Of a stretch of 31,304 nt of DNA, positions 1,621 to 30,644 are shown piece after piece. The position numbers and the translations under genes were made by a program. This stretch comes from a virus: positions 1 through 31,304 of the IMG/VR virus record IMGVR_UViG_3300010151_000082. One strand, written 5' to 3'. Numbering within the stretch: the stretch's first letter is position 1; every line of letters begins with the position of its first letter. Below the pieces are notes generated by a model. The model saw only the letters and a list, made by a program, of their open reading frames with translations. It ran no database searches and had not been told where the DNA came from.

Positions 1621-1976
1621 AGGTGTTCATTGCAAGTGTAGCCGCATCATTTATCGGACTGCTTTGGTTTATCGATTCCACGATTAAGAGGCTCGTCGTG
1701 CCCCTACTGCGCCAACCTGTCACGCCTGGATGGGTGCTACCTCGCTCTGGCGATACCGCTGAGGGGCCCCTCGGAGAGCAACATCGTGTTGACATTCCCG
1801 TGGATGTCACTCAAATGTTACAGTCAGTTCCTGTGCCTGCGGGCGAGCGCGAAGAGGACTATCGGGAGTGGCTATGGGAGCAGGCTGCCCTCCGGGTGCA
1901 GTACCCAGACGGTCACCCCCGGCAGGACTCGGACTATGAAGCAATCGAGCAGCGGGTGCTGGAGATGGAGCTCTAA
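1611..1976 (+). CDS. Small protein with one N-terminal membrane segment
   Basis: I do not recognise this 121-residue protein. Residues 2-22 form a strongly hydrophobic stretch (VLEVFIASVAASFIGLLWF) followed by basic residues, as in a single N-terminal membrane anchor. The remainder is hydrophilic and ends in an acidic helix-prone segment. It starts at ATG 1611 behind GAGGAAG and overlaps the terminase stop by 10 nt; its TAA shares one base with the portal ATG. Position between terminase and portal suggests a morphogenesis role, but a membrane segment there is unusual for a head gene. An anchored accessory protein of packaging, or a small lysis or ejection protein, are alternatives. Reality of the gene is well supported by its tight coupling; its function is not. 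Confidence 0.75.
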   Translation: MVLEVFIASVAASFIGLLWFIDSTIKRLVVPLLRQPVTPGWVLPRSGDTAEGPLGEQHRVDIPVDVTQMLQSVPVPAGEREEDYREWLWEQAALRVQYPDGHPRQDSDYEAIEQRVLEMEL

Positions 1977-4006
1977 TGCAGGTAGGCCAGCCGATGAAGC
2001 GGGACAAGAAGATGACCAAGGTCGTCTATGACCGCTACCAGTCCGCACGTAACCGCAAGAGCGAGCTCCACGACGACTGGTACACCCAGCATGCCTTCTA
2101 TGACGGGCGGCAGTACGTGCGCTACAGGGGTGGCAAGCCCAGCAAGCGCAAGGCACCCACCTACAGGGTCAGGCTGACGAAGAACCTCATCCGTCCCATC
2201 GTGGACACGGCGGTGGCCAAGCTGAACCAACAGAAACCCGGCTGGATGGTGCGCCCAACAGGCCCCGAAGAGGACCGCATCCACAAGGCGCGAGCAGCGG
2301 AGAGGCTCCTCGAGTTCCTCTACCGCAAGCTGCGCCTTCGTAACATCACGCAGGGCACCCTCTTCTGGGCCGCCGTCACAGGCACCGGCTTCGCCCATGT
2401 GAATTGGGACAAGAGCAAGACTTTGACCAAGGGTAAGGTGACTGGGGCCCCCCTCGTGAAGGTGGTCACCCCATTCGATGTCTACCCCGACCCAGCTGCC
2501 ACAAGCATGGATGACGCCCGGTGGTGCATCGTAAAGCACTCGCTGTCTGCGGCAGACATGGAAGCAAACTGGAAGGGCAGCATCACGCGCATCCAGGCAG
2601 CTGCTGAGTCTGCCAATGAGGACGCATGGTTCGATGCCGACATCAAGGGCTACATCTCTGGCGGGACAGTCAGCGAGGGAGAGGAGACCTACGAGGTCCT
2701 CGAGTATGAGGAGGCCCCCTGCGCCGAGTACCCCAAGGGCAGGAAAATCTACCAATGCGGGCTCATCACCCTGGCCAGCGGCGAGCTGCCCAACGGGCGC
2801 TACAGTCTGCATATGGTGCGGGTCGGCGTGGCGGGAGGTCGGTTCTGGGGCTTGGGTATCGTGCGGGATGTCATGGATGCCCAGCGCGAGTACAATCGGA
2901 CGTTCTCTCACATCATTGAGCTGAGGAACCTCGCGGTCAACCCTCCTTGGATAGCCCCAAACGGCTCACTGAAGACAGGCCGGGTGAGTAACCGCCCCGA
3001 CAGCATCAACTTCTACAACCAGAACTACAACAAGCCCGAGAGGCTCCCACCCGTCCCCATTCCATCGGGCCTGTATGAGCTGGCACAATCCCTTCGCCAG
3101 TCCATCGCGGACATCTCCGGGGTGCATGACGTGTCGCAGGGGAGGCAGCCCTCTGGGGTAGTGTCTGGTCGGGCTATGGGCATCCTGTCGGACCAGGACG
3201 CGACCAAGCTGGGTCCTGCCGTGTCTCAACTGGAGCTCTGGATCGAGAGCCTCGGTCAGTGCATCCTCGAGATGTGCCAGGAGCACCTCGACCCGGATGT
3301 CACCCTCTCAATTGTCGGGGAGGCGCGGTCTGCTGAGGTCACCAAGTTCCACCGTGGCATGCTGGACTCAGAGCTGGATGTGGAGGTCCAGCCAGGGTCT
3401 ATGCTCCCGAAATCGTTGAGCTTTGAACGCGAAATGGCTCAGAGAGAATTCCAGATCGGGGCGCTAGGCCCACCCGATGACCCGCAGACCCTCATCAAAT
3501 ACCGTAAGGCCTTGGGGCTTGGCCTCGGCGACCATAACGCGGATGAGGAGGTCGGACGTTTGTATGCCCGCCGAGAGAACGTGCTTCTCGAGGACGAGGA
3601 TGAGGCCAACCGGGAGAAGGTGCGGGTGTCGTGGCTCGACCAGCATATCGTGCATATCGATGAGCACTTGCGGGCATGTCGGGACCCAGCATTCTCCGGG
3701 CTCGACCCCGAGGTGCAGATGGCTCATGAGCAGCACATCGCAGAGCACTACCGACAGCTCCACATGCAGGCCCAGGGCTTGCCCACATACGTTGCGGCGT
3801 GGGGTGAGGACCCGTCAGCGCAGCAGCAGCCAGAGCAGCCCCAGCAGCCACCCATGCCAGAGGCAATGCCCCCTGAGCAGCCCATGCCAGAAGATGCAAT
3901 GGGGGGTGGGCTCGTGGGTGGTGGCACGCCGGAAATGAACGAAGCCCTCGTGGAAGGGGGCCCAGGTGTCAGTCCATACGGAGAGGAGATGAGTGCATAT
4001 GGATGA
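1976..4006 (+). CDS. Portal protein, P22-like
   Basis: This is the dodecameric portal that sits at one capsid vertex, docks the terminase and anchors the tail. At 676 residues it is in the size range of P22-type podovirus portals rather than the shorter HK97 type. The N-terminus reads KVVYDRYQSARNRKSELHDD, then LTKNLIRPIVDTAVAKL, the usual portal wing/stem start. A segment FWGLGIVRDVMDAQREYNRT is typical of the conserved clip/stem region. The last 70 residues are a Q/P/M-rich low-complexity tail, as in several podovirus portals. Start ATG 1976 overlaps the previous stop by one base; an in-frame ATG at 1994 behind AGGTAGG is an alternative. It sits in the canonical order terminase-portal-scaffold-capsid. 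Confidence 0.9.
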   Translation: MQVGQPMKRDKKMTKVVYDRYQSARNRKSELHDDWYTQHAFYDGRQYVRYRGGKPSKRKAPTYRVRLTKNLIRPIVDTAVAKLNQQKPGWMVRPTGPEEDRIHKARAAERLLEFLYRKLRLRNITQGTLFWAAVTGTGFAHVNWDKSKTLTKGKVTGAPLVKVVTPFDVYPDPAATSMDDARWCIVKHSLSAADMEANWKGSITRIQAAAESANEDAWFDADIKGYISGGTVSEGEETYEVLEYEEAPCAEYPKGRKIYQCGLITLASGELPNGRYSLHMVRVGVAGGRFWGLGIVRDVMDAQREYNRTFSHIIELRNLAVNPPWIAPNGSLKTGRVSNRPDSINFYNQNYNKPERLPPVPIPSGLYELAQSLRQSIADISGVHDVSQGRQPSGVVSGRAMGILSDQDATKLGPAVSQLELWIESLGQCILEMCQEHLDPDVTLSIVGEARSAEVTKFHRGMLDSELDVEVQPGSMLPKSLSFEREMAQREFQIGALGPPDDPQTLIKYRKALGLGLGDHNADEEVGRLYARRENVLLEDEDEANREKVRVSWLDQHIVHIDEHLRACRDPAFSGLDPEVQMAHEQHIAEHYRQLHMQAQGLPTYVAAWGEDPSAQQQPEQPQQPPMPEAMPPEQPMPEDAMGGGLVGGGTPEMNEALVEGGPGVSPYGEEMSAYG

Positions 4007-4757
4007 TGAGACAACAGTAGAGGACTCCGGGGAAGATCTATTCGACTTGCCTGCTGAGTTTACGAGTGAGGCGGCTCCTGAGCCTGCCCCTGAGCCAACC
4101 CCTGCTCCCGTGGCAGCACCCCCGGCAGAGGCACCCCCAGAGGTGGACTGGAAGGGGCGCTACGAGGAATACCAGCAGAAGGTGAAGCCCCAGCTGGATG
4201 AGTACGGGCAATTCAACAACTGGTGGAACAGCGGTGGCTCCAGCGAGTGGGACAACTACCAGCAATGGAAGACAGCCCAGCAGACGGAGGCTGAGCAGGC
4301 CCAGCAGGTAGATGCGGACGACTGGTTTGCCCGCCTAGAGGCCCAGGAGCAGCGCTACCAAGACCTGGCCCAACGGCTAGAGCAGTATGAGGGCAAGGGG
4401 CAGGACCCGGTCATCGAGAAGCTCAAGCTTCAGCACACGCAGAACGAGCTGAAGAAAAGCCTGGACCGGGCGCTTACAGGGAGGCCTGACATCCCCCAGA
4501 ATGACGTGCTCAAGACCTTCATTGAGGCGAATGGGGCGCTGTCTATCGAACAATGTGCAGCCTTCTACACGAGGGCACCGGCACCAGCCCCTCCAGCAGA
4601 GGCTGCACCCAAGACACAGACACTGCCGCCGATTAGCGGAGGGGCTACCCCAGCAGGGACCCCGCCTAAGCCGAGTGGTGGCGACGAATTTAAGTACTCG
4701 GGGACCCTGGATGACTTCGATCGCATCTGGGACTTTGAGTCGCAACGGTTTCAATAA
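3999..4757 (+). CDS. Scaffolding-like protein
   Basis: This is probably the internal scaffold that directs capsid assembly and is removed before or during packaging. The protein has about 252 residues. An acidic Pro/Ala/Glu-rich N-terminal third (repeats of PEPAPEPTPAP) is followed by a Gln/Glu-rich predicted coiled coil (about residues 95-145), a short linker and a C-terminal tail with TLDDFDRIWDFES. This composition and the position directly between portal and major capsid protein are typical of scaffolds, which show little sequence conservation. The ATG at 3999 is preferred because AGGAG (3984-3988) lies 10 nt before it; GTG at 3993 is only 4 nt away from that site. It overlaps the portal end. 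No protease domain or Ser-His motif is visible. Confidence 0.8.
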   Translation: MDDETTVEDSGEDLFDLPAEFTSEAAPEPAPEPTPAPVAAPPAEAPPEVDWKGRYEEYQQKVKPQLDEYGQFNNWWNSGGSSEWDNYQQWKTAQQTEAEQAQQVDADDWFARLEAQEQRYQDLAQRLEQYEGKGQDPVIEKLKLQHTQNELKKSLDRALTGRPDIPQNDVLKTFIEANGALSIEQCAAFYTRAPAPAPPAEAAPKTQTLPPISGGATPAGTPPKPSGGDEFKYSGTLDDFDRIWDFESQRFQ

Positions 4758-4777
4758 TTTTCTAAGGAGTTTCCAAG

Positions 4778-6100
4778 GTGGCAATTGACGATACCGCAGT
4801 AGACCTCACTAATTTCGATGAGGCTCTTAAAATCCGCTATGCCAAGGCAATTACACAGTATATTGAACGTACTGTGGCCCTCTACGGCATGCTTGAAAAG
4901 AAAAAGCAGGGATGGACGGGCAAGCACTTCCTTATCCCCGTCAACATCCGCACCCCCAACACGGTCGGAGCACGAGCCCACTCGGGTAACCTGCCTGCCG
5001 GTGGCGCTGACGTGTACGTCGACGCGAAAATCGTGGCGAAATACAACTACTGCAAGGTCAAGGCCTACAACACGGCTGAGGCTCACAGTAGTGGCAAGGC
5101 GGGTGCTTGGGCTACGGTCCGCAAGCAAGTCTTGAAGAACGCTGCGGCTGACCTCCGGGACTCGCTGAACCGGCAGCTCAACTGGGGCTCTGCGGGCATC
5201 CTCTGTGAGGCTAACTCGACGGGCTTGACCGTGACCATCAAGACCTACGGGGACTCGGTTGACACCACCGAAGGACCGGTTCCTGACACGACCAAGCTGC
5301 TCAGGGTGGGCATGCGGGTTGCGTGGGGTCGGGCCAACAATACTTCTGCAACCGACTTTTTCGCCGCGCCGACACCGGCTGCTGCTGGCTATGGGTACGT
5401 TAACTCCATCACCTCCAAGACGGTCTTCGTTCTCGTGAAAACGTCTGGTGATGACCCGGTCGCTGGCGAAATCTTCGTCATGGGTGAGGGCACGGGAGCT
5501 GATGACTACTCCTACGGGCACGAGCTTACGGGCATTGCCGAAATGATTGACGACTCGGGTACGTTCGAGAACATCGACAGCTCTGCCTACCCCGAGTGGA
5601 AGAGCCAGATGTTCGCCAACCCTGACGGGGCGGGCACCGAGCGGGAGCTGCAAGAGGACGACATCACCCAGCTGCTCGACACGATTAGCACCGAGTCCAC
5701 GGGCTCTGCCTCTGACCTCCTTCTTTTCGGCCACCACAGCACTCGACGTGCCTATGCCAACAGCCTGAAGAGCCGGAATGCCGAGCGCTTCAAGCCCACC
5801 AAGGTCAAGGGTGGTTACTCCCGCGAGTACCTCACCTTCCACTACGACGGCAGTGACGTGCCCCTGGTGGACGACAAGATGGCAAAGCACCGCACCCTCT
5901 TCGCCATGAGCAAGGCGCACACCTCCATCTATGAGGTCAAGCCCTTCTCCTGGGACTCCTCCTCGGGGGGCACCTGGAAGTGGGATGGTTCGCAGGATGC
6001 TGTGGTTGCATTCGGAAAAATCTACTGTGACCTGGGCACGGACAACCGAGCCGCCATGGGCGCAATCGAAGACATCGCTGTGACGGGGATTACCAAATGA
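4778..6100 (+). CDS. Major capsid protein
   Basis: This 440-residue protein occupies the major capsid slot straight after portal and scaffold. Its N-terminal helix (FDEALKIRYAKAITQYIERT) and the following glycine-rich segment (ARAHSGNLPAGGADVYVDAK) resemble the N-arm and E-loop region of HK97-fold capsid proteins in podovirus-like phages. The C-terminal half (LLLFGHHSTRRAYANSLKSR, then a P-domain-like beta region) is compatible with that fold. The start is GTG 4778, set by AAGGAG at 4764-4769 with 8 nt spacing. That is the clearest ribosome site of the head operon, which fits the high output needed for a major virion protein. It overlaps the next gene by ATGA. The HK97 fold is an inference from context and pattern. 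Confidence 0.87.
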   Translation: MAIDDTAVDLTNFDEALKIRYAKAITQYIERTVALYGMLEKKKQGWTGKHFLIPVNIRTPNTVGARAHSGNLPAGGADVYVDAKIVAKYNYCKVKAYNTAEAHSSGKAGAWATVRKQVLKNAAADLRDSLNRQLNWGSAGILCEANSTGLTVTIKTYGDSVDTTEGPVPDTTKLLRVGMRVAWGRANNTSATDFFAAPTPAAAGYGYVNSITSKTVFVLVKTSGDDPVAGEIFVMGEGTGADDYSYGHELTGIAEMIDDSGTFENIDSSAYPEWKSQMFANPDGAGTERELQEDDITQLLDTISTESTGSASDLLLFGHHSTRRAYANSLKSRNAERFKPTKVKGGYSREYLTFHYDGSDVPLVDDKMAKHRTLFAMSKAHTSIYEVKPFSWDSSSGGTWKWDGSQDAVVAFGKIYCDLGTDNRAAMGAIEDIAVTGITK

Positions 6101-6960
6101 GCTTGACAAATAAACAACGCAAGGCCCTTGAGGGTCTGGGAGGTCTGGCGTCAGGTCAGGTCTTCCTCGTGGGCGACACATCGAAGTCGTGGTACAGCCA
6201 GCTCGTGCAGGAGCTCCCGGCTGGGATGGTTCGTCCGAGCCTGGCCCAAGCCGTGGCTGCTGCTCGGGATGGCGGTGGCGATGTCATCGTGGTCCTGCCT
6301 GGAGAGCATACGCCTTCTGCGGCGGTGGCTGTAACCAAGCAAGTCCGCATCACCGGGCTGCCTGGGTACAAGAAAAGCACCCTGGTAATGGGTCCCACCA
6401 CTGCATCTGCCAACGTGTTCACCGTGACCGGAGAGGGTGTCACCATCGAGGGGCTGACCATCGCGTCGGATGCCAGCAACAATACGGGCAGCGGCATTAA
6501 CGCGGCGGCTAGTGATGTGACGGTTCGCGACTGTGCCTTTGTGGAGGGGGACAACGACTCCAACCATGGGGTAAAGGTTGCCGCTTCCGCAGAGAACGTG
6601 AGCATCCTCGACTGCTCCTTCAGCGGGCTTCAGACTGCTGTGGAGTTCAGCAACCCGCAGACGAACCTGCGTATCCAGGGGTGTGTTTTCGGGCAAAGCA
6701 CAAACGACAAGAACCTGATTGATGCCGTGGCAGCGGCAACTACTGGGCTCTTGGTCAAGGACTGCGTCTTCTTCGCGGCTACAACCAAAAACCTGGGTGT
6801 AGACACCGGCACCGCCACAGGGGGTCTCGTGTGTGACTGCTACTTTGCCGCAGAGTCCTGGACTGCGGCATCGCCAGGCTTCATTGGCGACGTGGACAGC
6901 GCGCTGGAACTCTGCGGCAACTACACCCGGGCGGGACTCGCGACAGGCTACCCTGCGTGA
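6097..6960 (+). CDS. Right-handed beta-helix protein after the capsid gene
   Basis: A 287-residue protein whose middle reads as regular short beta rungs with repeated V.DC.F-type turns (VTVRDCAFVEG, VSILDCSFSG, LRIQGCVFG, LLVKDCVFFA, LVCDCYFAA), the pattern of parallel beta-helix/pectate-lyase-like proteins. An opening like PSLAQAVAAARDGGGDVIVV resembles the N-terminal cap of such folds. No catalytic pectate lyase residues can be assigned with confidence. It is coupled to the capsid gene by ATGA and lies before the neck genes, so it is more likely a head decoration or head fibre than a tailspike. A second beta-helix gene lies at 9917-10642. Fold call is good, function inferred. Confidence 0.75.
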   Translation: MSLTNKQRKALEGLGGLASGQVFLVGDTSKSWYSQLVQELPAGMVRPSLAQAVAAARDGGGDVIVVLPGEHTPSAAVAVTKQVRITGLPGYKKSTLVMGPTTASANVFTVTGEGVTIEGLTIASDASNNTGSGINAAASDVTVRDCAFVEGDNDSNHGVKVAASAENVSILDCSFSGLQTAVEFSNPQTNLRIQGCVFGQSTNDKNLIDAVAAATTGLLVKDCVFFAATTKNLGVDTGTATGGLVCDCYFAAESWTAASPGFIGDVDSALELCGNYTRAGLATGYPA

Positions 6961-7469
6961 TAACGCCCAACCAGTACGAGCGAGCTCAGGCACTGCAACC
7001 CAGCGCGTACTGGACTCGATATGTCCATCAAGGCTACCCACCAGCTGCCCAATCAAAGGTGGTTGTCGCCTGGGACCCCGTTGGGGGCTGTTGGGTGCTG
7101 GCCTATGACACTGTCGAGACGATGCCTAACGGAGCGCACGGTCTCACGACTGCGCGATTCCTGAAGACGTTTTACTGTTGGCGGGGGATGGGCTCCATCC
7201 CCTTGCCACCAGGCCCACTCATGGTTCAGTGGCTCCGAGAGCATGACTGCTTCGCTGAGTCCTACGTCGGTGAGTGGAGCGACAAGTTCTTTGCTAGGGT
7301 CGACCGGGCCAGGGCAGAGGAGGATGAGAAGAAGTGGCAGGAGGAGGAGTATCGCCTCAAGCAGCTCTACCACCGCCATAAGGACGAGATACAGGGCAAG
7401 TTTGGGTATGTGCCCAAAGAGGGTCCTGCCGGTGAGCGCAAATTCTTCTACGAGGGGTGCCTCGGATGA
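6957..7469 (+). CDS. Hypothetical head-neck region protein
   Basis: Not recognised. The 170-residue product begins at GTG 6957, which overlaps the upstream TGA in GTGA and so depends on coupled translation. The first half contains aromatic-rich beta-like segments (VVVAWDPVGGCWVLAYDT) and the second half is a highly charged predicted helix (RARAEEDEKKWQEEEYRLKQ) that probably forms a coiled coil. Its place between the beta-helix gene and the adaptor gene suggests a structural or chaperone role in head completion. The N-terminal part has a look of small host-range or replication-accessory proteins that describe a substrate as given by a percentage or concentration, but nothing firm can be said. 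Confidence 0.7.
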   Translation: MITPNQYERAQALQPSAYWTRYVHQGYPPAAQSKVVVAWDPVGGCWVLAYDTVETMPNGAHGLTTARFLKTFYCWRGMGSIPLPPGPLMVQWLREHDCFAESYVGEWSDKFFARVDRARAEEDEKKWQEEEYRLKQLYHRHKDEIQGKFGYVPKEGPAGERKFFYEGCLG

Positions 7470-8149
7470 CGAGAGACGAGCTGATCACACTGGCGAAGTT
7501 CTGGCTGGATGAGAGGGGAAACTTCTACTCGACGGCTCAGCTGAATACGGCAGCCAACTTTGCGAACCGCATGGTGTACCGGGCGGTGGCCAACCAATCT
7601 CCGTCGCACTTCGCTCAGATAAGCACCTTCTCCTATCCTGCCGACACGGAGAAGGTGGATCTCTCTGGCGGCTCCTACCTAAACGAGCGACCGTACCGCA
7701 TGCTGGCAGTGCAACAGCTGCCCAGCGGGTCGACGGTCTCAGCAACCAACCGACCTCAGACCATCGAGTACATCTCCCCGAACACTAATCATGCGGATGA
7801 CATCGCCACCGAGGACCCGAACGTGTGGCAGTCGGCTGGGCTGTATTGGACGATGGACACGGATGTAGACCTCTACCTCCTCCCCATGCCCGCCTCAGCA
7901 ATCGACCTGCGGGTACGATGGATCGGCCACCTAGCCAACCTGGCAGCGGGGAGCACATCCCTCCTGGGGGGTAAGGCCACTGAGTTCCATGACCTGGTGG
8001 CGGCAGTGATGACGAAGACCCTCCAGCAGAAGGAGCGCAACTCAGACCAGGGAGTGACAGAGCTGTTGGTCTGGATTGGCAGCCAGGTCGAAATGGCTGA
8101 GGCTAGCCGAGAGGTTGCCCCCCGCGTCATCTTCGAGAGCCCCTACTAG
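7466..8149 (+). CDS. Head-tail adaptor (SU10 adaptor-like) protein
   Basis: This 227-residue protein probably forms the ring under the portal that connects head and tail. The helical N-terminus TRDELITLAKFWLDERGNFY followed by NTAANFANRMVYRAVA is typical of the phage adaptor family found in SU10 and related short-tailed phages. The middle is beta-rich (RMLAVQQLP, DVDLYLLPMP, DLRVRWIGHL) and the C-terminus returns to helix (HDLVAAVMTKTLQQKERN). ATG 7466 is preferred to GTG 7457: it overlaps the preceding stop as ATGA and has GAGGGG about 9 nt upstream. It sits between the head module and the nozzle gene, where adaptors normally are. Confidence 0.75.
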   Translation: MTRDELITLAKFWLDERGNFYSTAQLNTAANFANRMVYRAVANQSPSHFAQISTFSYPADTEKVDLSGGSYLNERPYRMLAVQQLPSGSTVSATNRPQTIEYISPNTNHADDIATEDPNVWQSAGLYWTMDTDVDLYLLPMPASAIDLRVRWIGHLANLAAGSTSLLGGKATEFHDLVAAVMTKTLQQKERNSDQGVTELLVWIGSQVEMAEASREVAPRVIFESPY

Positions 8150-9930
8150 TGGGCATCCAGGCGCGAGGTCAGTGGCTAGGTCTCGAGTACCGCAGCTCGC
8201 TCCAGACCCCGATGCATGACGAGATTGCCATCAACATGGACTACTCCAGGGGGACCAAAGCGGCCAGGCCAGGCATCAAGACCTACAGCTCATACGATGC
8301 GCTCATCTTTGGGGCTCAAATCGCAGTGGTGGAGGACTCGAGCGGCTATCCCTACGTCCTCCGGGTGGGCAACTATCTCACGACCAATGCAATCTCAGCA
8401 TCCGTGTACAGCTATCACGACGGTAGCGTGATAACCCCGCTGATTTCCCTCCCCGCCTGCCCTCCAGACCCCGAGTTCCGCTGCACCCTGCTGCGAGGCA
8501 ACTTCGATGGAGCTCCGGTGGTGTTCGTGTATACCAATCACGCCACCTACTACTTCAACCCATCGGCCTCCCTGTCCACGATCACAAAGCTCGTCCCCGC
8601 AACCCATGCCATCAAGCTCAAGAGCATAAACGCCAGGTACTGGATGAACAGCCCCATTGGTAAGGCCGCAGCGTGGCAGCGTGGGCGCTACTGGTCATGT
8701 GGATGGGAGACCCCGCAGACCATCACGCTCGACGGTGAGATGCCAGCCAACCAGGAGGACATCCCCAAGGAGTGGATGATTGCCGGGAACACGCAGTTCG
8801 TCCTGCCAGCCGGCGCCTATGCGTACTCAGATGGTAACGACGCTGCCGGTATCTGGGCCCCGAGCGTTGGCCTCATAGACTCCCAGGCTAAGATAGTCGC
8901 CCCGTATGCCTTCCGCGAAGCGCTGTACTTCTTCACGACCCGAGGCATCTGGTCTGTGTACGGTGACTTCGACACCGACAACCTGCAAGCCGTCGAGTCG
9001 GTGAGCAGTGTCGCCTGCGCCGCACCGCACGCTATCGTGGATGACGGGCGCGGCTTCTATTTCCTGTCGCAGGACGGGGTGTGGGTCTACGATGGCGAGA
9101 CCATGGTGCAGAAAATCTCTAAGCCCATCGACTGGCTGTTCACCGGTATCGGTCCCCACTGCAAAATCCCCGAGCCCGCAAAGACGCTCTGCGCTACCCT
9201 GGGCTACCCCTGGCGCATCGACGCATCGAAGCTGCACCTGGCCAGTGCCGTGCACGTAGCCAAGAAGAACCAGATCTGGTTTGCCGTCCCCGTCGAGGGC
9301 AACTCCAACGGCAACACGGTGTGTCTTGTGTGGGACGTCGCCCAAACTGCATGGTCTCTCCATTGCCGGCGCGACATGGGCGAGTACTTCAGCGGCGCAA
9401 TTGAGTACAAGGGGGAGGTGCTGCTCTCCCGAGACGGGTATCACGCCAAGGTGGGGGCTACCTACGATGACAGCGGAGCTGGCATCCCGGTTGTTTGCTG
9501 CACCACCAAGTTGCCAGGCCAGCTCAACCAGCAGCGGCTCCTCCCCCGGAAAGTGCGCCTGCGGATGATGGCACATGGGAAGAAGCCGGCAACCAACCCA
9601 CCGCAGTATTTCCTCGAGGCCGAGGACGCTACGTGGGACCATGAGGTCAACGGCTCTACCAACACAGACCGAGCGCTGAGTTCAGGCGACATCTACACGA
9701 CCCCTGACTGGCGGGAGGAGAACACGAGCTACCTCGGGACGAACTTTCGGCTCGACGGTGGCACGCTAGGGACGAGCGATTGGTTTACCAGCCGCATTGA
9801 CCCGTCCAGCTGTAGGGGTCGTTGGTTCCGGTTGGGCTGGGTGGATGACGCTAACACCGAGGACAGAGCACCCGTCATTGAGGTGGAGTCCTTCGACCTG
9901 GAGGTGGCCAGCACCAGTGGACCGGGCTAA
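8149..9930 (+). CDS. Tail nozzle / virion stabilisation protein, beta-propeller-like
   Basis: This 593-residue, beta-rich protein resembles P22 gp10-type stabilisation and T7 gp12-type nozzle proteins, which close the portal-adaptor channel. Signs are the RGTKAARPGIKTY opening, repeated aromatic-glycine blades (FREALYFFTTRGIWSVYGDF, GRGFYFLSQDGVWVYDG, KKNQIWFAVPVEG, LVWDVAQTAWSLH), and a C-terminal beta domain. Such nozzle proteins often open with a loose description of the substrate surface they cover, and the recurring W/Y-G turns fit propeller blades. GTG 8149 overlaps the preceding TAG by one base. The order adaptor then nozzle is conserved in podoviruses. Blade number cannot be decided by eye. 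Confidence 0.75.
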   Translation: MGIQARGQWLGLEYRSSLQTPMHDEIAINMDYSRGTKAARPGIKTYSSYDALIFGAQIAVVEDSSGYPYVLRVGNYLTTNAISASVYSYHDGSVITPLISLPACPPDPEFRCTLLRGNFDGAPVVFVYTNHATYYFNPSASLSTITKLVPATHAIKLKSINARYWMNSPIGKAAAWQRGRYWSCGWETPQTITLDGEMPANQEDIPKEWMIAGNTQFVLPAGAYAYSDGNDAAGIWAPSVGLIDSQAKIVAPYAFREALYFFTTRGIWSVYGDFDTDNLQAVESVSSVACAAPHAIVDDGRGFYFLSQDGVWVYDGETMVQKISKPIDWLFTGIGPHCKIPEPAKTLCATLGYPWRIDASKLHLASAVHVAKKNQIWFAVPVEGNSNGNTVCLVWDVAQTAWSLHCRRDMGEYFSGAIEYKGEVLLSRDGYHAKVGATYDDSGAGIPVVCCTTKLPGQLNQQRLLPRKVRLRMMAHGKKPATNPPQYFLEAEDATWDHEVNGSTNTDRALSSGDIYTTPDWREENTSYLGTNFRLDGGTLGTSDWFTSRIDPSSCRGRWFRLGWVDDANTEDRAPVIEVESFDLEVASTSGPG

Positions 9931-10642
9931 CCCAAGAATGATCGCCGGCTCCATGCCGCCCAGAGGGGGTGGTACGCTGCGCGGAAGCCGCCTGAACGGG
10001 CTCAGCCTCATCGAGCTGACTAGACGGGCTCTGAAGCCCCTCTCCGTGACCCAGGGTGTGCCCCTTACCTCTGCCATTGCCCTACTCGGGGACACGGGCG
10101 GGGTCATCATGTTGCAGCCGGGGGAGACCTGGGACATCTACGAGGCAATGACATTGACAGGCAACGACATTACGCTCATAGCCCACGGGGTGACCTTCAG
10201 AGCCGGTCCCGAGCTCGCAGCCCGCGCGATGGTTGTCCAGGGCGACCGCTTCCGGCTTCATGGCGGGGTGTTCGAGGCTGCTTCTACCGGCAACGCGGCC
10301 CTTCGACTCGAGGGGGATGATGCCATCATCGCGGGCACCCGGTTCTCGAATGTGGCGCAAGCCATTGCCGTGGCGGGTGGCAACAGGACGCAGATTCTAG
10401 ACTGCCAGGTGGGCACCGTCACCGACTCCACCTCAGCGATTGACCTCAGCGGGACCGCCACCGACTGTCTGGTTCGCGGGTGTGTCATCCAGGGACGAAC
10501 CCCAACCTGGGGTATTGACGCTGGCAGTGGTATTACGGTGAGTGCCTTTGTGGGCAACGTGAGCCAGGGTTTGCGGTATCATACGAGCGCCGGGCAGAAC
10601 AACGTGGCAGCCGGGAATACGGGGACCGTCAGTGCGATATAG
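9917..10642 (+). CDS. Right-handed beta-helix protein, fibre or spike candidate
   Basis: A 241-residue protein with parallel beta-helix rungs (FRLHGGVFEA, AIIAGTRFSN, TQILDCQVG, CLVRGCVIQG) and an N-terminal cap-like segment LQPGETWDIYEAMTLT. The C-terminal VSAFVGNVSQGLRY followed by AAGNTGTVSA is a frequent last coil of phage beta-helix fibres. No enzymatic residues are evident. The start is uncertain: GTG 9917 lies 10 nt after GGAGGTG (9900-9906) and overlaps the nozzle gene by 14 nt, whereas ATG 9938 lacks a clear ribosome site, so GTG 9917 is chosen. It may be a small tailspike, an appendage on the nozzle, or a relative of the beta-helix protein at 6097-6960. Confidence 0.72.
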   Translation: MDRANPRMIAGSMPPRGGGTLRGSRLNGLSLIELTRRALKPLSVTQGVPLTSAIALLGDTGGVIMLQPGETWDIYEAMTLTGNDITLIAHGVTFRAGPELAARAMVVQGDRFRLHGGVFEAASTGNAALRLEGDDAIIAGTRFSNVAQAIAVAGGNRTQILDCQVGTVTDSTSAIDLSGTATDCLVRGCVIQGRTPTWGIDAGSGITVSAFVGNVSQGLRYHTSAGQNNVAAGNTGTVSAI

Positions 10643-10650
10643 GAGCAAGC

Positions 10651-11109
10651 GTGGGTTACAGTAGAGTCACGACATGGTCAGCTGGAGAGTCGCTTACGGC
10701 GGCTGATCTGAATGCGGAGTTCAACGCGGTTTCCGCATACTCCATCCCGAAGGCCGACCTGGCCCAGAAGTCCATCCCCATTACGATTCCCGTGTTCTTT
10801 GGGCCTCAGTTCAACGGGGCAACCAAGACGGTGAAGACGAAGCTGAAGCATGCGATCGGGCCCCTCCGGGTCACCCTCCACGCGGGCGCTATCAGCGGTA
10901 ACCTGGACCTGTCCATCCAGGGCTCTGTGAGCGGAGAACTCATCAGCGGGACAACCTTGCGGGTATCGAGCACGGCGGTGGGGCACACCGACTCCTTCAC
11001 TACGGCTAACGTGGATGCGGGAGAGGACCTGACCTTCACTCTGGTAAAGGACAGCGGCAACGTGAGTGAGGTTTACATTTGCCTAACGGCTAAGACGGAG
11101 TTGATCTGA
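10651..11109 (+). CDS. Small fibre-like beta protein
   Basis: A 152-residue protein. The N-terminus contains TWSAGESLTAADLNAEFNAV, the short pattern (W.aGe.Lta.dLNa.f) that opens many phage tail-fibre and baseplate-proximal proteins. The remainder is alternating beta strands (PLRVTLHAG, NLDLSIQGSVSG, TTLRVSSTAV, LTFTLVKDSG), compatible with a beta-sandwich. Start GTG 10651 follows AGGAG (10641-10645). The stop shares a base with the next ATG. Likely a virion appendage protein that attaches to the nozzle region; receptor binding is possible but not shown by the sequence. Confidence 0.7.
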   Translation: MGYSRVTTWSAGESLTAADLNAEFNAVSAYSIPKADLAQKSIPITIPVFFGPQFNGATKTVKTKLKHAIGPLRVTLHAGAISGNLDLSIQGSVSGELISGTTLRVSSTAVGHTDSFTTANVDAGEDLTFTLVKDSGNVSEVYICLTAKTELI

Positions 11110-11510
11110 TGCTAGGGGATTTACTGGGTGGCTTGCTTAGCATAGCGGGAACCTTTGTCGGTGGGCCTATTGGCGGCATGGCTGGGGGGCTTTTAGGCAG
11201 CACAATCGGGGGGAGTGTAGACGCCTCGCAAGCCTCCGACCAGGCGGATAAGGCAGCAATGGACAGGGCTGCCGAGATAGAGGCCGCGAAGAAAGACAAG
11301 TCACCCTACCTCAACATGAACGCGGGACCCTGGTCAACCGGAGCTCAAGCCGTGGGCTCTGCCACCAACCCCTTTACGCAAGCCAGCGAGTTTTGGGGCG
11401 AAGGCCAGGGTGGGCGGCAGCCCTTCCGGTTTGCCGACCGACCGCCCCTGATGATGACGCAGCAGGAGGCCCAGCAGCAGGCAGCCAAGAAGATGATGGG
11501 GTATAGCTGA
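11109..11510 (+). CDS. Small glycine-rich virion protein candidate
   Basis: A 133-residue protein starting with an amphipathic to hydrophobic glycine-rich stretch (LLGGLLSIAGTFVGGPIGGM and onward to about residue 40), a profile common in phage DNA-ejection proteins and small membrane-active virion proteins. The rest is hydrophilic and Gln/Ala-rich, ending in QQQAAKKMMGYS. That tail resembles the end of the next protein (LHAARKMMGT), which suggests a shared targeting or processing motif. The gene overlaps both neighbours by one base. Function as an ejection or internal virion protein is inferred from composition and from its place just before the large internal proteins. Confidence 0.68.
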   Translation: MLGDLLGGLLSIAGTFVGGPIGGMAGGLLGSTIGGSVDASQASDQADKAAMDRAAEIEAAKKDKSPYLNMNAGPWSTGAQAVGSATNPFTQASEFWGEGQGGRQPFRFADRPPLMMTQQEAQQQAAKKMMGYS

Positions 11511-25540: not shown

Positions 25541-25653
25541 GTGGTTTGTAAGTCCATGAAAGTAGCAGGCTATGGTTTTTTTGTCCGAGAGAAACTTGAC
25601 CTGGCTCTTTGTGGGGGCGACAAAGGATGTTCACGCTCGGGGGAGGTGGTGAT

Positions 25654-26250
25654 TTGAGGCTCAGGTTTCGCTGTCCGCGATGTGGCAATGTCACTCAAGA
25701 GCGGCATCCTGCGTCCAGTTGGATCACCTGTCTGCCCTGCCGTGAGCAGACCATGACAGAGAAGGAGGATTATATGTATTACGCCGGGATAGACCTCGGC
25801 AACGACGGTGCTATCGTCGTGCTCAAGGGGGACCGTGACCAGCCTGCCACCTGGTATACCTGGGAGTCGGCCACTTTTGGGGCGAACGGTAGCCACGAGC
25901 CCTACGAGGAGGCGATTCGATCGTTCCATGCGGATTTCCAGGGGGTTGAACTCCGCATTGCCATCGAGAAGCCACTCAAGATGCGCTCACACCTGGCCAC
26001 TGCGGCCTTGTGGTGGGCCTACGGGTACGCTGCGTGCTTGCTGAAGGAGGAGTCATGGGTCGGGGTTTACCCCCGGACCTGGCAGTCGGCCATGATGGGG
26101 GACCTGGCTGGCAAGAGTAAGGACAAGAGCTATGAGGCGTCGGGGTTCTTCGTTGACCCCTTCGACGGGCTAGCTGACGCCCACAACATCGCAAAATACG
26201 GGAGGATGCACATCACATGGGAGAACGTCTCTTCACCCACAGCTCAATAG
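25654..26250 (+). CDS. RuvC-like resolvase with N-terminal zinc ribbon
   Basis: The frame gives a 198-residue protein if translation begins at TTG 25654, which has GGAGGT (25642-25647) 6 nt before it. Residues 7-29 hold a zinc ribbon, CPRCG and CLPC (CX2C-X15-CX2C). From MYYAGIDLGNDG onwards a RuvC/RNase H-fold nuclease follows, with Asp in GIDLGN, Glu in IAIEKP and Asp in GLADAHNIA as likely metal ligands. Phage RuvC-like enzymes resolve branched DNA in recombination and before packaging. A second start, ATG 25774 with AAGGAGG before it, would give a ribbon-free 158-residue form. It heads the recombination operon and overlaps the next gene by 34 nt. Confidence 0.75.
   Translation: MRLRFRCPRCGNVTQERHPASSWITCLPCREQTMTEKEDYMYYAGIDLGNDGAIVVLKGDRDQPATWYTWESATFGANGSHEPYEEAIRSFHADFQGVELRIAIEKPLKMRSHLATAALWWAYGYAACLLKEESWVGVYPRTWQSAMMGDLAGKSKDKSYEASGFFVDPFDGLADAHNIAKYGRMHITWENVSSPTAQ
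25762..25768 (+). promoter_or_regulatory. Strong internal ribosome binding site in the RuvC-like gene
   Basis: AAGGAGG lies 5 nt before ATG 25774, the first codon of the RuvC-fold part. It is stronger than the site before TTG 25654. Either the nuclease is made alone and the zinc ribbon is a relic or a separate upstream peptide fused in frame, or both a long and a short form are made. Confidence 0.7.
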
Positions 26251-27083
26251 CACTGTTTCAGCGGTGCCCACGCCAGTATCACTATCGATACCGGGAAGAA
26301 ATCATCAAGCCCTGGGCCACGCCTGGAGCGCGGGGGTTTGGCTCTGTCATCCACGACTGTCTGGAGCTCTGCCTGGGGGGGAAGCCCTACGAGCAGGTAC
26401 AGGCGCACATCGTGGAGAACGGAGGAAGGCCAGACCAGTGGTTGCAGCAGCTCGCCATGATGGACAGCTACTACTACCACCATCCACTGGAGCACGAGCC
26501 CTGGGAGGTAGTCAGCCTCGAGGACGTGTTTCACATCGAGGAGAACGGCTATAAGCACGCCGGCAAGGTCGACGGTCTCGTCCGCATGAAGGACACGGGA
26601 CAGCTCTACCTCCTCGAGCACAAGACGGCAGGCAAGGTCAGCCAGACCTACAAAGAGCGCATCTGGCACGACCAGCAAATCCACCGTTACGCCAGGTGGT
26701 ACGGGAAGGCCAAGGGGATCCAGATTGAGGGAGTCGTCTACAACGTCCTCATCAAAATCGCCCGAAGGAGGCGCGTCAAGCGAAACGAGGAGGATGAGGC
26801 CTACCTCGCCAGGCTAATCGCGGACTACCGGGAGCTACAGCCATTCCTCCGCATCAACATCCCGGTTCACGGTGACACCATGAAGGCCACCGAAGAGCAC
26901 GATGCCATGATTCTCGAGATGATGGCTAAGTGCGAGGAGAAGGATGTCTGGCCCAAAGCGACGGGGCAGTGTGAGGCCTTCCATAGGCCTTGCGACTACC
27001 TCAAACTGTGCATCGAGCACGACAGTCCCTACGTGAGAGAAGCAATCTATGAACACAAAGAACCACACTCGGAGCTGAAATAA
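26217..27083 (+). CDS. PD-(D/E)XK nuclease, Cas4/RecB-like with Fe-S cysteines
   Basis: A 288-residue nuclease. It opens with HSSIALFQRCPRQYHYRYRE, the usual start of Cas4/AddB-type enzymes, followed by GSVIH (His46), GKVDG (Asp119), and LLEHKTA (Glu134, Lys136), the PD-(D/E)XK core, and Q153...Y158. Four cysteines, C17, C252, C259 and C265, match the iron-sulphur cluster layout of Cas4-like nucleases. Such enzymes resect DNA ends for recombination; in phages they stand next to Sak4-type recombinases, as here. ATG 26217 lies inside the end of the RuvC-like gene (34 nt overlap) behind GGGAGG. No CRISPR array is present in the window, so a recombination role is the better reading. Confidence 0.82.
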   Translation: MGERLFTHSSIALFQRCPRQYHYRYREEIIKPWATPGARGFGSVIHDCLELCLGGKPYEQVQAHIVENGGRPDQWLQQLAMMDSYYYHHPLEHEPWEVVSLEDVFHIEENGYKHAGKVDGLVRMKDTGQLYLLEHKTAGKVSQTYKERIWHDQQIHRYARWYGKAKGIQIEGVVYNVLIKIARRRRVKRNEEDEAYLARLIADYRELQPFLRINIPVHGDTMKATEEHDAMILEMMAKCEEKDVWPKATGQCEAFHRPCDYLKLCIEHDSPYVREAIYEHKEPHSELK

Positions 27084-27800
27084 ATGACCATTGCCATACC
27101 GAAACACAAGACCCCGGTTCAGGCGGATATCACCAAGACGATGGTGCTGATCTACGGACCCCCAAAGGTCGGTAAGAGCACCTTCGCGGCCTCGGCCAAG
27201 CGACCCCTCTTCATCCCCACAGAGCCGGGACTCAACCACCTCAACGTCTTCAAAATCACCGAGAAGACCCACATCGAGACCTACCAGGAGCTGCACCAGG
27301 CCTATGTCGCCCTCCATAAGGCGAAGCAGGCCGGCACCCTCAACTTCGCCCCTATCGTCATCGATACCGTTGGCAGGATGGTCGACCTCTGCGAGGAGGA
27401 GGCCAAGCGCAAGACCGGCGCGGAGAACCTCGGGGATGTCCCCCATGGTGGAGGCTGGGCTGTGAGGAACACCCTCATCAAGGACCTCCTCTTCCGGTTT
27501 AGTGGCCTCGGACAAGGCCTCATGCTGCTGTGCCACAGCAAGCTCCTGGAGGAGGACACGCCCCGAGGCAAGCGCATCTCCCATGTTCCTGCCCTATCTG
27601 GCTCTGTAGCCCTCGCGGTCATGGGCCATGTGGACGTGGTCGGATTCGCCTACCCAGATGCGGACGGCAACCCCAAACTCTACACCAAACCCCACAAGTC
27701 CTATCAGGCGGGTGACCGAACCGGCCGACTCCCTGATGCCATGGACCTCGATTACGAAGCCTTCAAGAAGGCCTATGAGACAGGAGCGAAGACCAAATGA
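27084..27800 (+). CDS. Sak4-like RecA-fold ATPase
   Basis: A 238-residue ATPase with Walker A GPPKVGKST (residues 25-33) and a Walker B-type FAPIVIDTV ending in Asp94. The order and spacing, with a further LMLLCHSKL strand (sensor-like position), fits the Sak4 family of phage single-strand annealing or recombination ATPases, a minimal RecA fold. It starts at ATG 27084 immediately after the preceding stop, and its own stop overlaps the SSB gene's ATG. Neighbours (end-resecting nuclease, ssDNA-binding protein) are what Sak4 normally keeps company with, so it probably pairs homologous strands during phage replication. Confidence 0.82.
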   Translation: MTIAIPKHKTPVQADITKTMVLIYGPPKVGKSTFAASAKRPLFIPTEPGLNHLNVFKITEKTHIETYQELHQAYVALHKAKQAGTLNFAPIVIDTVGRMVDLCEEEAKRKTGAENLGDVPHGGGWAVRNTLIKDLLFRFSGLGQGLMLLCHSKLLEEDTPRGKRISHVPALSGSVALAVMGHVDVVGFAYPDADGNPKLYTKPHKSYQAGDRTGRLPDAMDLDYEAFKKAYETGAKTK

Positions 27801-28303
27801 CTGACGACTTTTTCGGCAAGACACCACCCGCTGCATTCGGCAATGACGGCAGCAACGACTGGCTCAGGGACCTCTGGTCTCAAACTGAAGCCGCTGAGCA
27901 GAAGCCAAGGCGTGAGAAAATCCCCGCAGGGGAGTACATCGCGGTGGTCGAAGGGCTCAAGCTCGAGGCCACAAAACAGGGCAAACCCAAGTTCACTTTC
28001 ACCCTGAAAATCGTGGACGGGGTCCTCAGTGGCCGGCTCCTCTGGAAAAGTTGTGTGCCGTCGAGTCCAGCCGCTATGGCATACTTTAAAGCTGATGTGG
28101 CAATGTGCGGCGCGAATGTCTCAGACGGGTATGACCTGGAGTCCATTAACGACTCCATCACCGGGCAGAGGCTCGCCATCTCAGTCAACTACCGCATCCG
28201 AAGCTGGGAAGGAAAGAGCTACGAAAACCAGAACATCTACTTCAACAAGTCGCTCAGCAGGGACCCCAGCGCGCCCGTCGATGACTTTGACGTGCCCTTC
28301 TAA
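27797..28303 (+). CDS. ssDNA-binding protein, DUF669-like
   Basis: A 168-residue protein in the position of the phage single-strand binding protein, coupled to the Sak4-like gene (ATGA). The middle has beta-strand segments of an OB-fold kind (GEYIAVVEGLKLEA, KFTFTLKIVDG, GQRLAISVNYRIRSW), and YFNKSL near the end. The C-terminus is an acidic tip, PVDDFDVPF, with a terminal Pro-Phe as in bacterial SSB, where this tip recruits partner proteins. It resembles the DUF669 family, often the SSB partner of Sak4-type recombinases. Family match by pattern only. Confidence 0.75.
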   Translation: MTDDFFGKTPPAAFGNDGSNDWLRDLWSQTEAAEQKPRREKIPAGEYIAVVEGLKLEATKQGKPKFTFTLKIVDGVLSGRLLWKSCVPSSPAAMAYFKADVAMCGANVSDGYDLESINDSITGQRLAISVNYRIRSWEGKSYENQNIYFNKSLSRDPSAPVDDFDVPF

Positions 28304-28340: not shown

Positions 28341-28481
28341 GTGCGAACCTGGCTGATTACAGGGACAATAGCCATTCACCTGCAAAAAGCCCGCGCATAC
28401 ACCCTCGAGGAGGTCATCTCCTGGGGAGGAACATGGAAACTTTTGAGCGAGCAGCCGACCGAGAGTGGGAGGCCAAGCTGA
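28341..28481 (+). CDS. Possible 46-residue ORF, low confidence
   Basis: The gap between the SSB gene and the Nmad1-like gene (28304-28432) is open in the frame starting at GTG 28341, with a purine-rich GAGGG shortly before it. The predicted peptide starts VRTWLITGTIAIHLQKARAY and overlaps the next gene by 49 nt. Its codon pattern is not clearly different from a chance reading and no family is evident. It is included because it is the only ORF that spans this gap. Confidence 0.25.
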   Translation: MRTWLITGTIAIHLQKARAYTLEEVISWGGTWKLLSEQPTESGRPS

Positions 28482-28729
28482 GCCAGTTCATGCAGGGTAT
28501 CCACCAGATGCTGGTCAGCAAGCGACAGGCCTATGGGGCCTCAATCGACCGACCCGTGGGCATTTTCCTACAGGCCTCCAGCGATGAAATCGGACTACGA
28601 GCTCGTATCGATGACAAGCTCAGCCGTATCGCCCGAGGCGACGGAACAGGTGACGAGGATGCCATTGATGACCTCATTGGCTACCTCATCATGCTCCAAA
28701 TCAAGCGGGGCGCAGAGGGGGCGAAATGA
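28433..28729 (+). CDS. Nmad1/DUF1599-like small protein
   Basis: A 98-residue protein with SKRQAYGASIDRPVGIFL, then RARIDDKLSRIARG and DAIDDLIGYLIML. The order of a YG element, an R..DKL.R motif and a D..DLIGYL helix is that of the nucleotide-modification-associated domain 1 (DUF1599) family, which occurs in phages near nucleotide-modifying enzymes. ATG 28433 has GGGGAGGA directly upstream. Its stop overlaps the ATG of the PAPS-reductase-like gene as ATGA, so the two are translated together. Biochemical role of the family is not settled. Confidence 0.65.
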   Translation: METFERAADREWEAKLSQFMQGIHQMLVSKRQAYGASIDRPVGIFLQASSDEIGLRARIDDKLSRIARGDGTGDEDAIDDLIGYLIMLQIKRGAEGAK

Positions 28730-29556
28730 ATCTTTGTTCGTTTGGAGCTGGGGTGCAGTCGTCTGCAATTGCTCTATTAGCTTACAATAAAGACCCAAGA
28801 TTGCTTGAGGTTACAGGCGGTGTTCTTCCAGATCGCTACCTGTTCGCTGACACCGGGGACGAGCCGCCAGAAGTGTACAAACAGCTCGAACTGTTCGAGT
28901 CGATGGTGCCAATAGAGCGAGTTTATCGCTTTGAAGACCGGCGCACGTTGGCTGACCAGCTTTGCGGCAGGCTGGAAAGCTGCAAGCAGACCAGCGTGAC
29001 CTGGATTCCTGGGTTTGTAGAGACGGGTGGTAGGTCTGGCCCCATCCAGCGGCGATGCACTCACACTATGAAGGTGGAGGCTTTGGATCGGGCCTCCAGG
29101 CGAATTGCTGAGGTGCCGAGAGGATGCAAAACCGTTGTGGTTCGTACGTGGCTAGGCATCTCGCTTGACGAAATCAGCCGATGCAAGACATCTCGCGAGC
29201 CCTGGCGGAAGTTCTTCTACCCATTGATTGAGATGGGCTGGAGGCGCGGGCAGTGCATTCGCTACCTGGAAGATCATGGCTTCTCCACCGTGAGGTCGGC
29301 GTGCGTTTATTGCCCGTTCCGCAGCAATCGAGAATGGGAGCGGATGCGAACAGAGGAGCCACACAACTTCGCGGCGGCGACCGCATTCGAGCAGCGGCTA
29401 CACAAAGCGTACGATGCGCTTGAAGAACCAGCCTTGCGATCAAAACCTTACCTCCATCGCACCAGAGACCCAATCGACCAGGTGGACTTTACTGGCGGTC
29501 AGATCGAGATGTGGTCAGCCATGGAGCAAGAATGCGCGGGTGTGTGCGGGGTATGA
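28726..29556 (+). CDS. PAPS reductase-like / adenine nucleotide alpha-hydrolase protein
   Basis: A 276-residue protein with a PP-loop-like start, CSFGAGVQSSAIALL, a FADTGDEPPEVY segment, RRCTHTMK (Cys111), WLGISLDEISR, a basic YPLIEMGWRRGQC segment and SACVYCPFRSNREW (Cys193 and Cys196). This set is typical of phage PAPS-reductase-family proteins, which activate a substrate with ATP and often act in thiolation or nucleotide modification. The first 75 bases are more AT-rich than their surroundings. It is coupled to the Nmad1-like gene before it and to the unknown gene after it. Sulphur assimilation is unlikely since no partner enzymes are present; DNA or tRNA modification is the better inference. 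Confidence 0.78.
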   Translation: MNLCSFGAGVQSSAIALLAYNKDPRLLEVTGGVLPDRYLFADTGDEPPEVYKQLELFESMVPIERVYRFEDRRTLADQLCGRLESCKQTSVTWIPGFVETGGRSGPIQRRCTHTMKVEALDRASRRIAEVPRGCKTVVVRTWLGISLDEISRCKTSREPWRKFFYPLIEMGWRRGQCIRYLEDHGFSTVRSACVYCPFRSNREWERMRTEEPHNFAAATAFEQRLHKAYDALEEPALRSKPYLHRTRDPIDQVDFTGGQIEMWSAMEQECAGVCGV

Positions 29557-29819
29557 GGCAACGAGGGGAGCAGTTCATCGCAGAACTCACAGCCCTCTGC
29601 GACAAGCACGGGATTTACCCCGTAGCCGCAACCGGATTCCTCCCGCTCCACCAGTGTTACATGGCGACAGAGGATGCGGCGGAAGACTGCCACCTACTCA
29701 GGATGCAGCTCTCGGATGCCAACCTCTGCCCACCGAGCTCCAAAGCGGAGCAGTTGTACCAGGAGGGCAAGCTCACCGATGAGCAGCTCGCTTCGTTACA
29801 CACTGCTACTGAGGAGTGA
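29553..29819 (+). CDS. Small protein of the recombination operon, unknown
   Basis: An 88-residue protein starting at ATG 29553, overlapping the previous stop as ATGA. It is helical at the beginning (EQFIAELTALCDKHGIYPVA) and end (KAEQLYQEGKLTDEQLASLH). The ELTALCDKHGI opening recurs in many small phage proteins of unknown role. It overlaps the start of the next gene by 41 nt. No function can be given. Confidence 0.65.
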   Translation: MRQRGEQFIAELTALCDKHGIYPVAATGFLPLHQCYMATEDAAEDCHLLRMQLSDANLCPPSSKAEQLYQEGKLTDEQLASLHTATEE

Positions 29820-30135
29820 CTATGAGCTGAGAGGATGGAGCACCTGGAGGGCAATCCACAAACCAAGCGGGCGGATATTCGTCCACCGCCACCGTGGGTC
29901 CTCCTACTCCACCCCAGCCATTGCGATTGCTGCACTACAGGATGCGGAGGCTGTCCTGGACGAGTACCTTATCGTCCTGCATCAGCTCATACAGACGGAT
30001 ATCGGGGTTGATCCCTCCTCGAGAAAGCCGGTCTGCGTCACACCAAACGAGTACCGCATTGGGCCCCTAATCCAGCGAATGGGGGAACCCTGGACCCCCG
30101 AGGAGTATGAGACCGATGATGACATTCCTTTCTAA
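29779..30135 (+). CDS. Small protein with an SSB-type C-terminal tip (DDDIPF)
   Basis: A 118-residue protein if ATG 29779 is the start, 11 nt after AGGAGGG (29761-29767). A nearer ATG at 29822 behind GAGGAG runs into a stop after two codons and is in another frame. Internal sequence (TWRAIHKPSGRIFVHRHRGS, AIAALQDAEAVLDEYLIVLH) shows no OB-fold that I recognise. The C-terminus, EEYETDDDIPF, ends in the same six residues as E. coli SSB, the tip that binds partner proteins such as Exo I, RecO and PriA. The gene lies in the recombination operon, which has its own SSB. It could be an SSB relative, or a protein that uses the tip to reach host SSB-binding enzymes. Confidence 0.68.
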   Translation: MSSSLRYTLLLRSDYELRGWSTWRAIHKPSGRIFVHRHRGSSYSTPAIAIAALQDAEAVLDEYLIVLHQLIQTDIGVDPSSRKPVCVTPNEYRIGPLIQRMGEPWTPEEYETDDDIPF

Positions 30136-30287: not shown

Positions 30288-30304
30288 AAATTAGCGGGAT
30301 GTCT

Positions 30305-30320
30305 CTTAAGTTAACTTAAG
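30305..30320. repeat. Perfect 16-bp palindrome, operator or origin candidate
   Basis: CTTAAGTTAACTTAAG is a perfect palindrome, with no loop, so it is more like a dimeric protein site than a terminator. The half-site TTAAG recurs nearby at about 30322-30326, 30335-30339 and 30363-30367, and GTTAAC recurs at 30367-30372. Confidence 0.85.
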
Positions 30321-30340
30321 GTTAAGTAGGCCTATTAAGT

Positions 30341-30356
30341 CTACTAGGCCTAGTAG
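30341..30356. repeat. Second perfect 16-bp palindrome
   Basis: CTACTAGGCCTAGTAG is a perfect palindrome 20 nt after the end of the first. Its core TAGGCCTA also occurs alone at 30327-30334, 15 bases earlier. Two different palindromes, each with satellite half-sites, suggest two dimeric regulators or an origin-binding array. Confidence 0.85.
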
Positions 30357-30437
30357 GGCTGGTTAAGTTAACAGGAAGTGGCGCGCTTTACATCAGGGGA
30401 GCTCGCAGGGTAGCCTGGCAAGCAAGGGGGATTACAC

Positions 30438-30644
30438 ATGCACCGGATGACAAGAAATCATAGCCTGACCATCACGCCTGTTCAGGATGACCTCTGGGGC
30501 GTCACACTAGACTTCCTCGAGGAGGGGGTCAGAGTCAGGGCGGTAGGGGCGACACCGCAGACAGCCATTGATGTCGTGTGGATGGCAGCCGAGCAAGTAG
30601 GCTCAGAGAGGCCTGTGTTGGAGCTGGTCCGGGGGGAGGGGTAA
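30438..30644 (+). CDS. Small protein, possibly HicB-like fold
   Basis: A 68-residue protein at the head of the next transcript, with a clear ribosome site AAGGGGG 7 nt before ATG 30438. It has two or three beta strands (SLTITPVQDDLWGVTLDFLE, VRVRAVGATP) followed by a helix (QTAIDVVWMAAEQV), the arrangement of small HicB-like or dsRBD-like proteins. The family is not certain. As the first gene after the palindrome region, it may be an early regulator, although no DNA-binding motif is evident. Confidence 0.62.
   Translation: MHRMTRNHSLTITPVQDDLWGVTLDFLEEGVRVRAVGATPQTAIDVVWMAAEQVGSERPVLELVRGEG

Follow-up and report, generated by a model that had tools for sequence, protein, structure and literature searches.

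The window considered here is the whole of a virus record of 31,304 bases, in which no end repeats were detected. Its forward strand carries an operon in which genes for a Holliday-junction-resolvase-like protein, an exonuclease, a Sak4-like annealing protein and an SSB of the DUF669 type are followed by four further genes (Table 1). The last of these, with the DUF669 SSB gene lying four genes upstream, encodes a small protein that ends in the hexapeptide DDDIPF and is referred to below as the tip protein. Gene junctions downstream of the resolvase mostly overlap or adjoin (the 88-aa gene, for example, starts across the stop of its predecessor in an ATGA), except that 129 nt separate the DUF669 gene from the next one at 28433. 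Directly after the tip gene there is an intergenic stretch of 302 nt with palindromes. Its part from 30304 to 30372 contains the perfect palindrome CTACTAGGCCTAGTAG, repeated copies of TAGGCCTA and TTAAGTTAAC, and T/C-rich repeats, and is a possible operator, origin or terminator region. As a separate observation, the PAPS-reductase-like gene has a codon usage score of about 0 bits per codon, against 0.2-0.45 elsewhere in the window, which suggests that it was acquired recently.

Table 1. Operon genes and elements of the tipped gene, in window positions
Feature	Position	Strand	Evidence
Holliday-junction-resolvase-like protein; N-terminal start uncertain	25609..26250	+	phrog_1770 E=3.8e-5
PD-(D/E)XK (Cas4/RecB-like) exonuclease	26217..27083	+	PF12705 E=4.2e-13; phrog_1218 E=7.9e-24
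Sak4-like ssDNA annealing protein (AAA_24), pI 9.2	27084..27800	+	phrog_124 E=4.5e-41; PF13479 E=1.9e-29
DUF669-type SSB ending in DDFDVPF, the operon's own SSB	27797..28303	+	PF05037 E=4.6e-10; phrog_378 E=9.2e-9
98-aa phrog_1485 protein	28433..28729	+	phrog_1485 E=2.3e-9
PAPS-reductase-like protein	28726..29556	+	phrog_424 E=3.1e-37
88-aa protein without family match	29553..29819	+	Pfam, PHROGs and NCBIfam searches
AGGAGG, probable ribosome-binding site, 12 nt 5' of the ATG	29761..29766	+	read from sequence; inference
Tipped ORFan, 118 aa	29779..30135	+	ORF, translation, coding score, charge, homologue search
Codons for DDDIPF*, the hexapeptide that also closes E. coli SSB	30115..30135	+	pattern match

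The tipped gene and its product

The reading frame of the tip gene opens with an ATG at 29779, closes with a TAA at 30133-30135 and overlaps the preceding gene by 41 nt; its full translation is MSSSLRYTLLLRSDYELRGWSTWRAIHKPSGRIFVHRHRGSSYSTPAIAIAALQDAEAVLDEYLIVLHQLIQTDIGVDPSSRKPVCVTPNEYRIGPLIQRMGEPWTPEEYETDDDIPF, and the protein ends in PWTPEEYETDDDIPF. The first-pass annotation had given this gene the same coordinates, length and tip, and had noted that the operon already encodes a DUF669-like SSB ending in DDFDVPF; all of this is correct, with both PF05037 and phrog_378 agreeing on the latter. An alternative start at 29674, which would yield 153 aa, was rejected, as it overlaps the gene at 29553-29819, adds Arg/Ser-rich sequence and lies far from the AGGAGG. 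Codon usage supports the ORF as a gene, scoring 0.17 bits per codon over its whole length and 0.22 without the overlap region. In this it resembles the window's genes and differs from the non-gene frames (mean -0.19, sd 0.19 bits per codon, n=92), a set in which several of the top-scoring frames overlap probable genes missing from the gene list. The product divides by charge into a roughly neutral to basic part (residues 1-75, pI 8.2) and an acidic tail (residues 76-118) that terminates in EEYETDDDIPF.

Such an ending is rarely produced by accident. A degenerate DNA pattern for DDDIPF followed by a stop has a single match in the window, and none of 100 dinucleotide-shuffled versions contains it. 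From the amino acid frequencies of the window, the probability of DDDIPF at a given C-terminus is 1.4e-8, so that 4e-7 occurrences are expected over 31 genes. When the tip is relaxed to [DE][DE]x[ILVM]PF the expectation over the same genes rises to 1.6e-4. None of 32,880 random internal ORF positions matched a relaxed tip rule. Only two proteins in the window are tipped, the ORFan and the DUF669 protein, and chance is still less likely because one short operon holds them both.

Searches for relatives of the tip protein returned none in Pfam (to E=10), PHROGs or NCBIfam, none in phages or plasmids by tblastn, and none in viral or genome contigs by peptide patterns, in a set of collections some of which lack the window's own record. 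A DNA pattern search with W..[DE][DE]...[DE][DE][DE]xPF* likewise gave no match. The best hit of a PDB sequence search was a LIM-domain protein at E=0.04, accompanied by weak pseudopilin matches, and these were judged to be chance. A likeness by eye to the product of the next gene (30438-30644), in the order of its strands and helix (b-b-b-alpha), did not hold up, in that the two proteins could not be aligned. Single-sequence AlphaFold2 modeling proposed strands followed by one long helix, at a confidence too low to rely on (pLDDT 42.6 for the full protein and 48.7 for residues 1-78).

Comparison with known SSBs by hhalign confines the similarity to the end of the protein. Against 12 bacterial-type SSBs (PF00436 / phrog_44) residues 96-118 alone align, against small tipped phage SSBs (phrog_18154 / phrog_7364) residues 107-118 alone, and against DUF669 (PF05037 / phrog_378) the last 7 residues alone. 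The OB-fold domain of bacterial-type SSBs found no match in the tip protein in Pfam to E=10 or in PHROGs, the DUF669 domain none in Pfam or PHROGs, and the core of about 60 aa of phrog_18154 / phrog_7364 was not found by hhalign or in PHROGs. With bacterial-type SSBs it does share an acidic C-terminus closing in Pro-Phe, EEYETDDDIPF. By every sequence test applied, the tip protein does not appear to be an SSB, yet it plausibly employs an SSB tail.

The DDDIPF end on other viral proteins

The first-pass annotation had taken the tip as a singular case, a view that a scan of viral contigs does not sustain, since DDDIPF also ends many phage proteins that are not SSBs or have no assignment. The scan found at least 120 loci (numbered with the prefix L) with at least 112 distinct ORFs of at least 60 aa, where chance matches of the order of ten would be expected in a collection assumed to hold 4e10 bases. 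Known SSB types make up at least about 62 of the 112 distinct ORFs listed, a tally that derives from family counts and cluster assignment and not from per-protein curation; they comprise PF00436, phrog_18154/7364, phrog_743, DUF669-like, phrog_9002, gp2.5-like and other proteins. Clear non-SSB enzymes account for at least nine of the 112 among the matches listed, namely SF2 helicases (phrog_16) of uncultured phages (L040, L063, L068, L076, L115 and L119), a T7-gp4-like primase/helicase fragment (L108), an Erf annealase (L122) and a polymerase processivity factor (L075). The listed ORFs that carry neither an SSB nor an enzyme assignment may include cryptic SSBs.

Small tipped proteins recur in the neighborhood of recombination genes. 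Ten orphans were inspected, and six of them lie beside genes for RecE/ExoVIII-type exonucleases, Sak, Sak4 or Erf: RecE-like exonuclease and Sak-like genes precede the tipped gene in L007 and L078, a Sak4-like gene does so in L051 and L096 and an Erf gene in L073, and in L047 the tipped gene comes first, ahead of an exonuclease VIII-like gene. A seventh (L110) comes after a primase gene, while L065, L100 and L121 showed no link to recombination genes, the profile scan for L100 covering its upstream neighbor alone. Two further loci resemble the window in holding two tipped proteins each, with a phrog_2402 protein (DDDIPF) adjacent to a phrog_21866 primase (MNDDIPF) at L014:3788-6162 and L035:966-3340.

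Within families the tip comes and goes. The phrog_1811 proteins of pelagiphages and cyanophages, 73-75 aa in length, end in DDDIPF in L009, L028, L036, L074 and L125, the last being Pelagibacter phage HTVC033P, whereas those of cyanophages S-TIM4, ACG-2014d and 9515-10a and of Pelagibacter phage HTVC109P do not. Among phrog_16 helicases, the tipped L115 has six relatives in isolate phages that likewise lack it. Gain or loss of the tip inside these two families fits a portable tag, and the untipped relatives imply that the tip need not be essential. The tip protein of the window combines an SSB-type tip, the absence of an SSB domain by sequence profiles and a position among DNA-metabolism genes. 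A limited search of the open-access literature turned up no account that treats phage proteins with an SSB tip, other than SSBs themselves, as a class. On bacterial SSBs, DDDIPF occurs across many phyla. A host close to E. coli was considered on the strength of the tip and discarded, because a tip this widespread, on the proteins of unrelated viruses as well as on bacterial SSBs, is no indication of E. coli or its relatives.

A docking role and its alternatives

The tails of SSBs serve as a hub that recruits a large set of bacterial repair and replication enzymes. The SSB tip on the tip protein is probably a docking tag. By analogy with known systems, and with our confidence about evenly balanced, we read its bearer as an accessory recombination or replication protein of a Sak4-type operon, on which EEYETDDDIPF would serve as a docking peptide of the SSB type that can be transferred between proteins. 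Its final Pro-Phe would enter the hydrophobic, basic-rimmed pocket that normally takes an SSB tail, and docking would tether the N-terminal domain to the partner bearing that pocket. Most likely this partner comes from the phage's own ssDNA-processing machinery, as Sak4 or a replication protein with affinity for the DUF669 tail as well, from the host's SSB-interacting enzymes, or from both. What is established is the gene with its exact C-terminal tip, its place in the operon, SSB homology detected nowhere but at the tip, and the recurrence of the tip on unrelated phage DNA-metabolism proteins; we infer the binding of a partner, the identity of that partner and the role of the N-terminal domain.

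Several known systems bear on this reading. With the bacterial SSB C-terminus (MDFDDDIPF) the tip protein shares the last six residues, preceding acidic residues and exact C-terminal placement (PMC5872125), whereas it has neither a detectable SSB OB fold nor the low-complexity linker typical of SSBs. Phage HK620, like the window, encodes Sak4 together with a tipped SSB in one operon, and its Sak4 needs the terminal hexapeptide of that SSB (NDYPPF) both to bind SSB-coated ssDNA and for annealing to be stimulated (PMC5928155). There, however, the tipped protein is the SSB itself, a place held in the window by the DUF669 protein, with the ORFan as a second tipped protein. The T7 helicase gp4, a phage replication protein that is not an SSB, attaches by its acidic C-terminal tails to basic patches on a partner in the replisome, the polymerase, and tail loss lowers processivity (PMC12593628). 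Gp4 is, however, a large enzyme whose tail is not DDDIPF, while the tip protein is a 118-aa ORFan without a helicase domain. The phrog_1811 proteins and orphans L007, L047, L051, L073, L078 and L096 resemble the tip protein in being small, DDDIPF-ended and without a recognized SSB domain, and the orphans also share the recombination neighborhood. Nevertheless, they show no sequence similarity to it, and each belongs to a different family.

The initial interpretation, in which the tip would recruit or sequester host SSB-binding proteins such as RecO, PriA, Exo I or RecQ, is partly supported: the tip is C-terminal and non-random, as exact placement in a recombination operon had been taken to indicate and as the expected numbers bear out, it sits beside a separate tipped SSB, and no OB fold is evident from the protein sequence, in agreement with the sequence profiles and with SSB alignments restricted to the tip. 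As to the partner, the phage's own basic Sak4 would be at least as likely as a host SSB-binding enzyme, because the HK620 Sak4 depends on the last six residues of its SSB.

The main rival, which we consider doubtful but serious, is that the tip protein is a cryptic second SSB, with the usual tip on a divergent OB-like or other ssDNA-binding domain. Recognized SSB types are, after all, the majority of the listed DDDIPF-ended ORFs, and the small tipped proteins of L007, L051, L073, L078 and L096 adjoin Sak4, Erf or RecE-type genes, a placement that counts for this rival because a phage SSB gene is expected there. The weakly modeled b-b-b-alpha order is, moreover, common to the first part of the OB fold. 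Against it, one tipped SSB, the DUF669 protein, is already encoded in the operon beside Sak4, three SSB-type profiles align with the protein at the tip alone, and the Gly/Gln/Pro-rich linker of most SSBs is missing; there is also no Pfam match at E=10 and no PHROG match, although these single-sequence profile tests are insensitive.

We consider it improbable that the tip protein is instead a decoy that floods the SSB-binding pockets of host enzymes (Exo I, RecQ, RecJ, RecO, PriA) and so inhibits those that would attack phage recombination intermediates. Peptides and compounds that fill SSB-tip pockets do block such enzymes, but lone SSB-tail peptides bind weakly and must compete with abundant host SSB. 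Partners of E. coli SSB bind this very peptide (PMC5872125), yet no phage inhibitor of such design was found in the literature searched. Because DDDIPF also sits on working phage enzymes, including helicases, a clamp and an annealase, recruitment is favored over sequestration as its usual use. Least probable of all, and very unlikely given the expected numbers and the position in a recombination operon, is that an ORFan of unrelated role ends in DDDIPF by accident; a small share is left to this because the tip was selected after the fact, the ORFan stands alone without evidence of conservation, and some tipped ORFs of the scan are tiny (23-26 aa; L066, L080) and may themselves be chance or truncated.

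If the docking reading is extended, the SSB tip may serve phages as a portable tag for recruitment. Lineages would have added it repeatedly, to small accessory proteins as well as to helicases, primases, clamps and annealases, and several phage proteins would draw on one set of pockets, with the tip protein as a dedicated adaptor beside a tipped SSB. We advance this extension tentatively, as a possibility. The most interesting outcome of the analysis is the wider pattern itself, in which SSB tips end phage proteins that are not SSBs. Should phages indeed place SSB tails on unrelated proteins, the tip would become a searchable marker for uncharacterized phage DNA-metabolism proteins, and phages would be plugging their own enzymes into a shared docking site or displacing host enzymes from it. 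A tag of six residues makes the docking idea directly testable.

Relatives of the phage

Relatives were also sought through the capsid, terminase, DUF669, PAPS-like and Sak4 proteins, and none of those found spans the tip gene. They are two near-identical fragments, L124 and L002, and a more distant contig, L003, with a 52%-identical capsid. The fragments match window positions 1-3149 and 411-11198, respectively, at 99.5-99.9% identity, and the phage evidently recurs, since they come from two other metagenome samples. Upstream (5') of the terminase, GroES/Cpn10-like proteins (PF00166) are encoded at L124:600-932 (-) and L003:1646-1921 (-), and the co-chaperonin gene is thus conserved in this phage group, in both the near-identical and the 52%-identical relative.
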